NCBI GenBank assembly: GCA_031279875.1
Contig: JAITHS010000406.1
Location: forward strand, 1-21,994
Direction: 5' to 3'
From: Tannerella sp.
GTDB lineage: Bacteria > Bacteroidota > Bacteroidia > Bacteroidales > Tannerellaceae
Length of the DNA stretch: 21,994 nt
Shown here one piece after another: positions 3,699-21,916 of this stretch; the stretch's first letter is position 1; each line of letters starts with the position of its first letter. Below the pieces are notes generated by a model, which searched no databases, was not told the origin of the DNA, and was given only the letters and a program-made list of their open reading frames with translations. A program made the position numbers and the translations under genes.

Positions 3699-4244
3699 AT
3701 GATAACGGATGAAAAATTACTTGTTGAGGGATGTCAGCGAGGCGACCGACCAGCGCAAAAAGCCTTGTATGACATGTATTCCGGCAAGATGATGGCAGTG
3801 TGCATGAGATATGTTAAAAATATCGAAGACGCGCAGGACATCTTGCAGGAAGGTTTTATTAAAGTATTTACCAACCTTAACAGGTATTCAGGAACGGGTC
3901 AGTTTGGAGGCTGGGTGAGGCGTATAATTGTTAATTGTGCGCTGGAACATTTGAGACGTGCCGATGTTTTACGCGAAGCGTTTGATATTGAGGACGTTCA
4001 AATAGAAGATGAAGCCGATGATGTTTCGCCATACGAAGTATCCGGCGATACGATACTGAAGTGTATCGCTTCTTTGCCCGACGGTTTTAGAACTGTTTTT
4101 AACTTGTATGCCATAGAAGAGTATTCTCACAAAGATATTGGTCAGATGCTCGGAATTTCGGAAGGTACGTCGCGGTCACAGTATGCCCGCGCACGTAAAA
4201 TGCTGCAAAAGATGATTTTACAAAATATTAAACATAACGGATGA
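3699..4244 (+). CDS. ECF-family RNA polymerase sigma factor (Das/ECF21-like)
   Basis: This is a 181-residue alternative sigma factor that would redirect RNA polymerase to a small regulon. Sigma region 2 spans about residues 19-86 (ALYDMYSGKMMAVCMRYVKN, then DAQDILQEGFIKVF). Region 4 spans about 125-175, with the helix-turn-helix HKDIGQMLGISEGTSRSQYA. No region 3 is present, as expected for ECF sigmas. Its stop overlaps the start of the next gene by 4 bases (ATGA), so the sigma factor and the anti-sigma-like protein are probably translationally coupled. In context it resembles the sigma factor partnered with dual membrane-spanning anti-sigma (Dma) proteins of Bacteroidota. That subfamily assignment is by context, not by alignment. 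Confidence 0.9.
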   Translation: MITDEKLLVEGCQRGDRPAQKALYDMYSGKMMAVCMRYVKNIEDAQDILQEGFIKVFTNLNRYSGTGQFGGWVRRIIVNCALEHLRRADVLREAFDIEDVQIEDEADDVSPYEVSGDTILKCIASLPDGFRTVFNLYAIEEYSHKDIGQMLGISEGTSRSQYARARKMLQKMILQNIKHNG

Positions 4245-5518
4245 CAGAAGAAAGAGATATGTTTGAAAAGATGATTCGTTCGCAACTTGATGATTATGAG
4301 GCGAATGTAAGTCCCGATGTCTGGACGGCAATAGAAGCCGGTCTCAATAAGCGAAAGAGAAAATCAGTAGTGTTGATTTCGTTTCGACGATGGTGTTACT
4401 ATGCTGCGGCAGCGGCTGTAGCAGCATTGTTTGTTATATATATACAAGGAGACGAGGAGACGGGGATACAAGGAGACAAGGAGACAACCCTTGCAGTGGT
4501 TTGCAACCCTGCAAGTGGTTTGAACGAGGAGACAAGGAAACAAGGAAACGAGGAGACGAGGGGACAAGGAGACGAGGGAACAACCCTTGCAGTGGTTTGT
4601 AACCCTGCAAGTGGTTTGAACGAGGAGACAAGGAAACAAGGAAACGAGGAGACAAGGAAACAAGGAAACGAGGAGACGAGGGAACAAGGAAACGAGGAGA
4701 CGAGGGAAGAAAGCAAAAAAGCAACAAAGCAACAAACAAACAAACAAACAACAAAACAACGAAACAATTTAATAGCAAACACTCGTCGCTGGAGTTTCGG
4801 CATGGGTGGCGGCAGCATCGGTGTCGGTACAAATACCGTAGGAATGAGTTCGACGGCCGATTTATACATGTCTGACGTCGCCGCTACGCCGGAGCATAAC
4901 CCCATAAGCAACAACAACCCATCCTCTCCGTCAACCCACATTACCACCCGTCCGTCACAAGAAATTCTGCTCAACAACTACGTCAAAAATCGGACATCAC
5001 AAAATGCCAAAGCACATCACAAAATACCCATTTCAACCGGTATCGGCGTCAGTTACATCCTCAACGACAGATGGTCGCTTAACAGCGGTCTCACGTACAC
5101 CCTGTTACGCTCAACGTGGGACTATGAAATCACCAGCGAAACGACAGGACAAGACCGTCAAACGCTTCATTTTCTTGGTCTTCCGCTGTCGGTTTCATAC
5201 CGCCTCGCACAGTGGCGAAAGATGATGTTTTACCTCTCGGCAGGCGGAATGTGCGAATGGAACTTCGCAGGCAAATATAAAGAAATCCAGTATGTCAACG
5301 GTGATCACCTGCCAAAAGAAAACGACGACCGCATAACCGTGCCGCTATGGTCGCTCAACAGCCGCGCCGGAGTTACATATCCGCTGTGGAAATTCATCAG
5401 CATCTACGCCGAAACAGGCGCCTCTTATCACTTCAAATATAACAGTGATATCGAAACAATTTGGTCAAATAAACCTTTTTATGTATCTTTGCAGGCCGGA
5501 ATACGCTTCGGATTTTAA
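4241..5518 (+). CDS. Dma-like anti-sigma protein: cytoplasmic tail, inner-membrane helix, repeat-encoded linker, outer-membrane beta-barrel
   Basis: The 425-residue protein has four parts. Residues 1-50 are a soluble tail (RSQLDDYEANVSPDVWTAIE, then a KRKRK stop-transfer cluster) of the kind that would hold the sigma factor. Residues about 52-68 (CYYAAAAAVAALFVIYI) form a transmembrane helix. Residues about 69-176 are a charged, low-complexity linker of 8-residue repeats such as NEETRKQG. Residues about 180-425 alternate as in a small beta-barrel and end YVSLQAGIRFGF, with the terminal Phe typical of outer-membrane proteins. A linker of over 100 residues is enough to cross the periplasm. This order matches what I recall of the Dma family, which controls outer-membrane vesicle formation through its sigma factor. 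Anti-sigma activity is inferred. The linker is encoded by a DNA repeat array, described separately. Confidence 0.75.
   Translation: MTEERDMFEKMIRSQLDDYEANVSPDVWTAIEAGLNKRKRKSVVLISFRRWCYYAAAAAVAALFVIYIQGDEETGIQGDKETTLAVVCNPASGLNEETRKQGNEETRGQGDEGTTLAVVCNPASGLNEETRKQGNEETRKQGNEETREQGNEETREESKKATKQQTNKQTTKQRNNLIANTRRWSFGMGGGSIGVGTNTVGMSSTADLYMSDVAATPEHNPISNNNPSSPSTHITTRPSQEILLNNYVKNRTSQNAKAHHKIPISTGIGVSYILNDRWSLNSGLTYTLLRSTWDYEITSETTGQDRQTLHFLGLPLSVSYRLAQWRKMMFYLSAGGMCEWNFAGKYKEIQYVNGDHLPKENDDRITVPLWSLNSRAGVTYPLWKFISIYAETGASYHFKYNSDIETIWSNKPFYVSLQAGIRFGF
4446..4709 (+). repeat. In-frame octamer tandem repeat array with two 40-bp cores (linker-coding)
   Basis: The whole 264-base stretch divides into 8-base steps. 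There are five octamers, a 40-base core (4486-4525), seven octamers, a second core (4582-4621) and eleven octamers. Typical units are AAGGAGAC, GAGGAGAC, AAGGAAAC and GAGGGAAC. The cores differ at one base, and core plus seven octamers forms a 96-base duplication (32 codons). Each core contains CTGCAAGTGGTTTG (4509-4522 and 4605-4618). The array runs on into A/C-rich short repeats (AAAGCAAC, AAAC) to about 4764. Three octamers equal eight codons, hence the 8-residue protein repeat. The array is open in all three antisense frames, which produces spurious ORFs. Confidence 0.93.
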
Positions 5519-5556: not shown

Positions 5557-6360
5557 ATGAGAAAAACAACTATTTTTTTACTTGCGATGATACTCGGTAT
5601 AGCATCGCTCACTTCATGCCTTGACGGCAAAAATGTTCAATCGGGATACGCCCTCGGAGTTTACGACGCCGACGGAGGTTATTTCTCCCAATCGCTATTT
5701 CACAGCACTGTAGGACCACTCTACGCCCCATCTATGAATACATACATGCAGTCGGGCGAAAGTTTTCTTGTCTATTACAACTGCGATTTCGATGCACCCG
5801 AAAACTCTTCGGCAATGCTTCAAACTAACAACTACTATACCGTTACGATTTCCAACTATTCCAAGCTACCGCAAACGACAGCGATGTCGTATATGAGCGA
5901 CACATCAACGGTAATGGACAACGAGATACCCCTTTTGTCGGGTTATTACAACAACAACGGAGCGTTAGTGAATACCACATCCGACAGTTATCTCTTTTTG
6001 CCGCACACATTGCCGCAGGCTTCCGACGTAGAACTCGATTGGAGCATGTGCTACGGTAATTATTCCGGTCAGCCTACCGTTGTAGGCGCAGAACGTTTTT
6101 ACGACCTCTATATCAGAGCAACTAAAACAACGACCAAACTGTCGAAGAGTCAAAACGAATTTCAGGTATGCTATCGCATCGGTTCTTTCCTTCGCGACGC
6201 CGCCTATAACGAGCGAAACCAGGAATACTTCAACGCCGAGACATCCAAATTTAATGTCAGAATATTCTGGGTATCATCCGTTTCAAACGGGAAATTAGCA
6301 TGGTCGAGCGCCGTTCAGAGCATGTTCGTTGCCTCTTTCCTCGACGAAGAAGGATATTAA
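5557..6360 (+). CDS. Lipoprotein of unknown function, possibly NigD-like
   Basis: The 267-residue protein has a clear lipoprotein signal: basic start MRKTTIF, hydrophobic core and lipobox LTSC with the lipid cysteine at C21. The mature part is rich in Tyr, Asn and Ser and looks beta-rich (for example YYTVTISNYSKL). Size, the SCLDG start and the position after a sigma/Dma-like pair recall NigD-like lipoproteins of Bacteroidales. The sequence resemblance I can see is weak, so this is a suggestion only. It follows the previous gene by 38 bases on the same strand without a recognisable promoter, so it probably belongs to the sigma factor operon. Without an alignment it is a lipoprotein of unknown function. 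Confidence 0.75.
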   Translation: MRKTTIFLLAMILGIASLTSCLDGKNVQSGYALGVYDADGGYFSQSLFHSTVGPLYAPSMNTYMQSGESFLVYYNCDFDAPENSSAMLQTNNYYTVTISNYSKLPQTTAMSYMSDTSTVMDNEIPLLSGYYNNNGALVNTTSDSYLFLPHTLPQASDVELDWSMCYGNYSGQPTVVGAERFYDLYIRATKTTTKLSKSQNEFQVCYRIGSFLRDAAYNERNQEYFNAETSKFNVRIFWVSSVSNGKLAWSSAVQSMFVASFLDEEGY

Positions 6361-9366: not shown

Positions 9367-10359
9367 ATGGAAAAGAAAAAGAAACAATCGCTAAAACCCC
9401 AAGAGGGAGAACGCATACAGCGAAACATGATACGCTTTGACTGGGCGTTGAAACGCCTGTTACGCAATAAAGCCAACTACGTAGTGTTGGAAGGATTTTT
9501 GAGCGTGTTGTTGAACCAACAAATTACTATTAAAACTATTAAAGACCCGGAAGGTAACAAACAGACAGAAGAAGATAAGTACAATCGTGTTGACATACTT
9601 TGCGAAAACGACAAAAATGAGTTGTTAATTATAGAATTACAAAACAACAGTGAAGCCGATTACTTCTTTCGTATGCAATATGCTGTTGCCAAGGCTATTT
9701 CGGAACATCTCCGTTCCGGAGATAAATATGAAAAAGTTCGCAAGGTATATCACATTAATATTGTTTATTTTGAACTCGGAGTAGGAAAAGACTATGTTTA
9801 TCACGGCACAAACAACTTTGTAGGGATTCATCTCAACGATATTCTTCAACTGACGCCAAGTCAACGCAAGTTTTTGGGTAAAACGGATATATCCGAAATA
9901 TTTCCGGAATATTATATCCTTAAAGTTAACGGTTTTGATGATGTTGCAAAAAACAGCCTCGACGAATGGATATATTTTCTTAAAAACAGTGCTATTCCGG
10001 ACAGTTTCAGTGCTCCGGGTCTTGAAGAGGCGCGTCTTGTATTGATGCGCGACCGTATGACGCCGGAAGAAAAGTCCGATTACGACAATCATATGCAAAA
10101 TGTTATGTATAAAAACAGTATGATGGTTACCAAAATATTCGAATTGCAATATGCAAAAGACGAAGGACGGGAAGAAGGACGGCAAGAGGGACGGGAAGAA
10201 GGACGGGAAGAAGGACGGGAAGAAGAACGCCGACTGCTGGAACCGGTAATAGAGGAGCAAAAACGAGCATTAGAGGCAAAAGACCAAGCCATTAACGATA
10301 TTAAAAAAGAAATTGAACTTTTACGGAAACAGTTGAAAGACGAAGATAAGCAAAAATGA
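9367..10359 (+). CDS. Rpn-family PD-(D/E)XK nuclease / putative transposase (PDDEXK_2-like)
   Basis: The 330-residue protein resembles the Rpn/PD-(D/E)XK nuclease-transposase group. Some members nick DNA and promote recombination, and some act in phage defence. The nuclease core shows D76 in NRVDILCEN and E90-L-Q92 in LLIIELQN, the D...ExQ form of the active site. The beginning IRFDWALKRLLRN, then the later FRMQYAVAKAISEH, is typical. Residues 266-285 are a tetrapeptide repeat (EGRE/EGRQ) and 286-330 look like a charged coiled coil. I chose the ATG at 9367. An upstream TTG at 9316 would place the promoter inside the gene. It is monocistronic by appearance; no terminal inverted repeats were found, so mobility is not shown. 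Confidence 0.85.
   Translation: MEKKKKQSLKPQEGERIQRNMIRFDWALKRLLRNKANYVVLEGFLSVLLNQQITIKTIKDPEGNKQTEEDKYNRVDILCENDKNELLIIELQNNSEADYFFRMQYAVAKAISEHLRSGDKYEKVRKVYHINIVYFELGVGKDYVYHGTNNFVGIHLNDILQLTPSQRKFLGKTDISEIFPEYYILKVNGFDDVAKNSLDEWIYFLKNSAIPDSFSAPGLEEARLVLMRDRMTPEEKSDYDNHMQNVMYKNSMMVTKIFELQYAKDEGREEGRQEGREEGREEGREEERRLLEPVIEEQKRALEAKDQAINDIKKEIELLRKQLKDEDKQK
10162..10221 (+). repeat. 12-bp tandem repeat coding for EGRE units in the Rpn gene
   Basis: Five near-identical 12-base units (consensus GAAGGACGGGAA) are followed by one degenerate copy. The unit is four codons, so copy-number change would lengthen or shorten the protein without a frameshift, unlike the octamer array at 4446-4709. 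Confidence 0.9.

Positions 10360-20037: not shown

Positions 20038-20041
<4 letters not shown>
18782..20041 (+). CDS. DUF4998-like lipoprotein with C-terminal F5/8 type C (discoidin) domain
   Basis: This 419-residue lipoprotein has lipobox LASC with lipid cysteine C17. Residues about 18-210 look like DUF4998 (MDVHKKFTDGGEIVYAPRLD, then GHNRVFFKFRTLNA). Residues about 230-419 form a discoidin-type carbohydrate-binding fold (HFIIDGDFTSFWHSSY, then FTIIIDFGEDIAIEQVDLYR), ending RYLKLILPNTRSNGNVSLAE. It probably binds ligand at the surface together with SusD. The gene lies 35 bases after the previous lipoprotein gene, and its stop overlaps the start of the phosphoesterase gene (ATGA). Confidence 0.82.
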
Positions 20042-21819
<1,778 letters not shown>

Positions 21820-21843
21820 GAGCTTACGTCCGTCATTGGGAAT

Positions 21844-21906
21844 GGGTAGTGGGTAGTGGGTAGTGGGTAGTGGGTAGTGGGTAGTGGGTAGTGGGTAGTG
21901 GGTAGT
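21844..21906 (+). repeat. Heptamer tandem repeat GGGTAGT, nine copies
   Basis: Nine perfect copies of GGGTAGT follow AAT and end at GGTACC. The reverse strand reads as a Pro/Leu/Thr/His/Tyr repeat (PLPTTHY) in a spurious open frame, which is not a gene. The G-triplets spaced by TAGT could also form a G-quadruplex. Confidence 0.97.
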
Positions 21907-21916
21907 GGTACCACGC

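Follow-up and report, generated by a model that had tools for sequence, protein, structure and literature searches.

A genome-specific dispersed repeat encoding much of a Dma-like anti-sigma factor linker in Tannerella sp.: probable in-frame capture as a passive tether

In a Dma-like anti-sigma factor of Tannerella sp., the linker is encoded largely by a repeat that is dispersed through the same genome, and we consider it probable (about 0.8) that this repeat was captured in the gene and kept in frame as a passive tether. The gene lies in the window, the whole 21,994-nucleotide stretch of DNA that was analyzed (contig JAITHS010000406.1 of GenBank assembly GCA_031279875.1, forward strand). In the course of events that we propose, a repeat made of 8-bp tandem units and a palindromic core would have entered the linker and been retained in frame, where its product may act as a passive, disordered periplasmic tether joining the inner-membrane anti-sigma part to the outer-membrane barrel. 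The repeat would have been tolerated through octamers that are free of stops in all frames, a hydrophilic sense reading and a linker that is free to change, and later growth would have proceeded in 24- and 96-bp steps that kept the frame.

Host gene and structure of the array

The coordinates of all features are collected in Table 1. The anti-sigma protein consists, in order, of an N-terminal part, a transmembrane (TM) helix, a linker and a C-terminal beta-barrel, which matches PF13568 with 27.2 bits, just above the cut-off of 27. The N-terminus is conserved among orthologues, but no anti-sigma domain was matched in Pfam or NCBIfam, and for this reason the protein is labeled Dma-like only. Matches were found in 37 relatives in all, 30 of them of the same genus, and 29 of these 30 make up the orthologue set. 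The window and 29 genomes of the same genus provide 30 loci, at all of which the genes for the sigma factor, the anti-sigma factor and the NigD-like lipoprotein, or their relatives, follow one another on one strand, with the NigD-like gene of one locus, L047, lying approximately 1.1 kb away.

This layout resembles that of Dma (dual membrane-spanning anti-sigma factors), reported in B. thetaiotaomicron with a TM helix, a long tether, a C-terminal barrel and an adjacent ECF sigma factor gene (PMC13088901). The Dma proteins lie next to an ECF21 sigma factor through which vesiculation is controlled; the neighbor of the gene in the window encodes an ECF-type sigma factor. The linker in the window differs in coming from a dispersed repeat, and kinship to the B. 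thetaiotaomicron proteins is drawn from architecture, not sequence. An earlier note on this DNA had proposed a trans-envelope anti-sigma factor whose linker is written by the array, and the TM helix, the barrel and the neighboring ECF sigma factor gene support this for a Dma-like protein.

Using TRF, periods of 8, 24 and 96 were found across positions 4444 to 4709, the last of these in 2.4 copies with 90% matches, in support of the proposal that a frame-neutral 96-bp duplication has occurred in the past. In the array, 23 octamers (ACRAGGRR, one of them clearly divergent) and two 40-bp cores share a single 8-base register. This strict register had been described before and was confirmed, except that it begins two bases earlier. 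Exact two-octamer matches number 18 on the plus strand, compared with 0 in 100 dinucleotide shuffles. The array encodes 88 of the 113 linker residues, and its coding frame does run on into the barrel as had been claimed, being open throughout, matching PF13568 and aligning with the 29 orthologues. Positions 4724 to 4769, within the A-rich tail of the linker, resemble positions 5292 to 5336 of contig C43 of the same genome (87%; BLAST).

Table 1. Features of the window and genes carrying the repeat in frame
Feature	Location	Strand	Basis or remark
ECF sigma factor gene (das-like)	3699..4244	+	Sigma70_r2, r4_2, TIGR02937; 4-bp overlap with next gene
Dma-like anti-sigma factor gene, 425 aa	4241..5518	+	ORF, PF13568, orthologue alignments
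TM helix, approximate, residues 52-68	4394..4444	+	Hydropathy maximum, ahead of linker
5 octamers ACRAGGRR, third unit divergent	4444..4483	+	Sequence, TRF
Core copy 1, palindrome, predicted hairpin	4484..4523	+	Core comparison, folding
7 octamers	4524..4579	+	
Core copy 2, 96 bp beyond copy 1	4580..4619	+	TRF
11 octamers, 24-bp higher-order unit	4620..4707	+	Identical units at lag 3, 7/8 pairs
A-rich linker tail (EESKKATKQQTNKQ...)	4708..4767	+	
Conserved C-terminal barrel region, starts RRWxFGMGGG	4784..5515	+	PF13568, orthologue alignments
NigD-like lipoprotein gene, third in conserved cluster	5557..6360	+	PF22221
In-gene host: Dma-like anti-sigma gene	Window		
In-gene hosts: two FecR anti-sigma genes	C172, C157		Pfam
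In-gene host: CarB	C222		Pfam
In-gene host: Rho	C262		Pfam
In-gene host: RND transporter	C293		Pfam
In-gene host: HU-CCDC81/SPOR protein	C101		Pfam
In-gene host: OmpA-family protein	C347		Pfam
In-gene host: E2 acyltransferase, lipoyl and E3-binding domains	C272		Pfam
In-gene host: GNAT protein	C320		Pfam
Further ORF at contig end, 66-bp in-frame units (TLAVVSEPCKRFEQ...)	C221, L087:3729-4299 (about)		

Linker length in orthologues

The 113-aa linker compares with a mean of 130.7 +/- 16.4 aa in the orthologues (range, 85 to 168 aa; n = 29), the linkers of which are similar in length and unrelated in sequence. The nearest other protein among the matches listed is 38% identical, with no second strain represented among them, and the linker region searched alone found only itself among 5,773 candidates. 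Alignment of orthologues had been suggested in the earlier note as a check on the array; linkers of similar length were indeed present in all 29, and the same residues encoded by nonrepetitive codons were not seen in any of them. Steps of three octamers (8 residues) or of 96 bp (32 residues) could also serve, if selected, to set how far the protein reaches across the periplasm, a reading with which the internal 24- and 96-bp periods and the confinement of the linkers to 85 to 168 aa would agree. That range is nevertheless a wide spread, and most orthologue linkers carry no strong tandem array according to TRF, making selection on length an unlikely explanation. The orthologue at L048 (genome G018) carries five copies of a 14-residue unit of the YGSSPTVVNVDGEK type ahead of its TM helix.

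Distribution of the repeat within the genome

A BLAST search with 601 bp around the array gave 78 matches in its own genome. The 24-bp octamer pattern has 65 exact matches there (control, 0) and none in 60 relatives, of which 36 belong to the same genus, while the 15-base half-core ACCCTGCAAGNGGTT has 281 exact copies (control, 0) and three matches in 2 of the 60 relatives. Octamer and core thus form a repeat family scattered through this genome and nearly absent from the 60 relatives. Each of them, and the two combined, recur at other loci (C2, C43, C221, C272 and C320). When 152 core copies from the fetched contigs were compared with their flanks, the palindrome proved to be longer and to fold into a hairpin; the consensus is predicted to form a hairpin of approximately 37 nt with -19 kcal/mol as RNA. 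An exact search with the 32-base consensus core found it absent from the GTDB r220 species collection, which perhaps leaves out this genome, and from IMG/VR. The genome has a single match to Y1_Tnp (RAYT-like), at L259 (C98:217-432; 30.6 bits), and the 1.9 kb around it contains other palindromic repeats but not the core of the array.

The location of copies was examined in 101 of the 410 contigs (812,347 of 2,785,059 bases), of which 85, the window included, were picked because they carried a listed repeat or as the window itself and 16 were unselected; C24 and C322 were included in part. Genes were called with a hexamer model, by which 89.5% of the fetched contigs is coding. Of 144 repeat clusters, 126 were intergenic or partial. 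Another 8 lay within ORFs but had coding-like sequence on only one side, and the 10 with such sequence on both sides are here called in-gene. As most of the contigs were chosen for carrying the repeat, these fractions hold for the fetched contigs and not for the genome. A further ORF, at the end of C221, contains an in-frame array of 66-bp units within which the contig terminates, and thus the assembly seems to be broken in the repeat. Counted together, a mostly noncoding repeat family of one genome has been made into protein in about eleven genes.

The inserts in eight of the nine other in-gene hosts lie outside the named Pfam domains, and that in the GNAT gene starts at the domain edge. In the RND transporter, for which the RND model covers the whole protein, the insert occupies approximately residues 494 to 507, between the two halves. 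Such repeat peptides are not domains, and the origin of disordered linkers becomes testable through them.

It is conceivable that the repeat works at the RNA or DNA level, through an mRNA hairpin at the core or as a site for protein binding, and that the peptide is a by-product. The strong predicted hairpin of the core consensus fits such a role, as does the location of most clusters outside genes, but 6 of the 10 in-gene clusters (C172, CarB, Rho, RND, C101 and C347) consist of octamers with no exact core motif, and a search of the window against Rfam gave no match. We regard this role as improbable for the array in the linker. In the FecR gene of C157 (L091:6773-7840), an in-frame reverse core is accompanied by a second repeat-like stretch (ERHCEARSNP...WIASFLAMT), likewise in frame.

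Frame tolerance, orientation and length steps

All 512 variants of three consecutive octamers were translated, and no stop codon was found in 1,536 sense and 1,536 antisense 24-mer frames. The mean hydropathy of the octamers is -2.73 in the sense reading (hydrophilic) and +0.97 in the antisense reading (hydrophobic). In the cores, both of the remaining forward frames contain stop codons. All nine in-gene octamer clusters are read in sense (P = 0.004 against one half), the core-only cluster of C157 being left out. Of the 21 clusters outside genes, which include four at ORF edges (among these that of C221, counted as sense), 13 have the same orientation as the nearest gene and 8 the opposite, such that the contrast with in-gene clusters reaches only P = 0.067 by Fisher's test.

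Octamers do not divide evenly into codons, so that the gain or loss of one or two of them shifts the frame, and in a phase switch such changes would turn the anti-sigma factor off and free the sigma factor. The arithmetic of the earlier note is correct: with -1, -2, +1 and +2 octamers the ORF ends at 208, 171, 179 and 216 aa, respectively, a truncation to 171 to 216 aa, whereas the loss or gain of three octamers (eight residues) keeps an ORF of 417 or 433 aa. The array itself, however, does not look like a contingency locus with a long perfect frame-shifting tract. Its units are imperfect, and the longest perfect tract is 20 bp at period 8 compared with 59 bp at period 24. Within the 11-unit block, units are identical in 7 of 8 pairs at lag 3 but in only 2 of 10 at lag 1 and 1 of 9 at lag 2. 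Elsewhere, identity at lag 3 was found in one of four pairs in the 7-unit block of the window, one of eight in an intergenic block of 11 units (C152) and three of six in a block of 9 units at an ORF edge (C203). Likely length changes are therefore frame neutral, given the 59-bp tract at period 24, and either the mechanism or the loss of frameshifted forms may account for this. Periods of tandem cores in coding sequence are weak evidence of selection, as 18 of 38 noncoding pairs likewise have periods that are multiples of 3.

The same repeat is, moreover, present in frame in housekeeping and other genes, including those for CarB, Rho, E2 and the RND pump, arguing for general capture and tolerance. 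The on/off switch is hence unsupported by these data and very unlikely, and a tempting reading of the array is removed.

Dispersed repeats in the linkers of other species

The linker of the orthologue at L053 contains an octamer array of a different type, AACGGGAG, which is found at 32 or more other places in its genome (G012), and that of L046 contains a palindromic repeat found in at least 39 other places in its genome (G036) and present in the genome of the window too. For the linkers of L042 and L056, which served as controls, two matches and one match, respectively, were listed in their own genomes, with themselves included. Three species thus carry different dispersed repeats in one orthologous linker. 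In 20 fetched stretches of G012, 16 AACGGGAG sites were located in 13 stretches. Judged by ORF length only, two sites are clearly in-gene and in sense, the one in the anti-sigma linker and another at a C-terminus (L279); sites near the start of two long ORFs (L264 and L272) are antisense and doubtful.

A different result was obtained for L051 (G014), the linker of which has a 24-bp array of 3.9 copies and 7-bp arrays according to TRF. No other place in G014 was found for these arrays among the matches listed (four there), although sequences similar to the 7-bp part occur in G000, G012 and G036. The repeat of this linker was perhaps made locally, and thus some linker arrays may arise in place. 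For the window, the corresponding explanation is that the array grew within the gene by slippage and merely resembles arrays elsewhere, and local amplification has clearly occurred in it as well. Nevertheless, the octamer, the unrelated palindromic core and the combination of the two all recur at other sites, a dispersal that largely refutes purely local growth and leaves it only a slight chance.

A broader reading is that, across the genus, the dispersed repeats of each lineage form a mobile supply of linker-coding sequence that overwrites disordered linkers (anti-sigma tethers and those of E2, Rho, OmpA and SPOR proteins) and then grows or shrinks in frame-neutral steps. Tandem units that lack stops in every frame, and that encode hydrophilic peptides in one orientation, could make repeated overwriting feasible. 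We put this forward tentatively, as possible but less than even; if it holds, tether lengths would evolve fast and in parallel across species.

Comparison of other host genes with relatives

Four of the hosts other than anti-sigma genes (CarB, RND, E2 and GNAT) were compared with relatives. The CarB gene, for which one match was found in the genome, carries a 30-bp insert that is missing from 28 of 28 readable relatives. Thirty CarB loci were collected (the gene itself, 28 that were read and the fragment L198, which was not); 34 relatives had some match. Through its insert, the RND protein exceeds four of the five relatives closest to it by six residues and the remaining one by eight. In E2, the repeat accounts for almost all of the linker that joins the lipoyl and E3-binding domains, and 19 relatives have other linkers at this site. 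In the GNAT protein, a stretch has been replaced, with three additional residues at its start relative to most of 19 relatives. These comparisons indicate that the repeat both inserts and replaces. Neither the 30-bp CarB insert nor the net RND change (18 or 24 bp) is explained by simply counting octamers added in a single event, and this speaks against the capture reading that we prefer.

A chimera of unrelated contigs fused at repeats is scarcely credible, despite a fragmented assembly (410 contigs, 80% complete) with one contig, C221, ending in a repeat array, as the frame is open, the neighboring genes are conserved, the protein agrees with its orthologues at both ends, and the CarB, RND, E2 and GNAT flanks match relatives on either side of the repeat.

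Relation to known repeats

In-frame capture of dispersed repeats is already known, with RPEs in Rickettsia genes and MITEs and REPs in ORFs, as reported (PMC2229807 and PMC3733652). Like the RPE as reported there, the repeat of the window is small and dispersed, lies mainly between genes and has some in-frame copies within conserved ones. It differs from this Rickettsia element in that it combines an 8-bp tandem unit with a palindrome of approximately 37 nt, belongs to Bacteroidota (the proteins of the relatives are labeled Tannerella sp.), replaces linkers as well as lengthening them and grows in tandem, and in that the same orthologous linker carries different repeats in different species. 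In the way it works, the case in the window resembles an RPE without being one.

CGTC-tagged REPs of Bacteroidetes and REPs within ORFs are reported (PMC3733652). REPs are palindromes of 20 to 40 bp in high copy number, mostly outside genes. The core resembles REPs and MITEs in being a 37-nt hairpin palindrome of high copy number (as the half-core count indicates) and mainly extragenic location, but here it is coupled to octamer arrays. REPs are, in addition, associated with a RAYT transposase, for which the one Y1_Tnp match in this genome is a candidate, with other palindromes and not the core of the array in the 1.9 kb around it. STRRs are 7-bp repeats of cyanobacteria. Short tandem units of this kind, spread over the genome, are reported in a cyanobacterial RNA gene (Vioque 1997); the unit in the window is 8 bp, from Bacteroidota and inside protein genes. 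Repeat DNA that codes within genes has also been described as palindromic amphipathic repeat coding sequence in other hosts, and the likeness to the repeat of the window is one of description and not of sequence (PMC2996958).

With the terms used, no account of such octamer arrays in Bacteroidota was found in the open literature searched. As far as these searches reach, three aspects are new: an octamer that stays open in any frame, linkers that are replaced by a repeat, and an orthologous linker that holds different dispersed repeats in each of three species.

Other tandem repeats were noticed in the window. Positions 21763 to 21908 contain two 7-bp arrays, TGAGAGT (6.1 copies) and TGGGTAG (9.4 copies; TRF), with a core-like CTGCAAGCGGTTTGGAG between them, and the stop codon of the gene at 20038 to 21765 is the first TGA of the TGAGAGT array. 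A 12-bp repeat of 5.7 copies at positions 10162 to 10229 lies in frame in a gene of the PD-(D/E)XK transposase family and encodes EGRE repeats.
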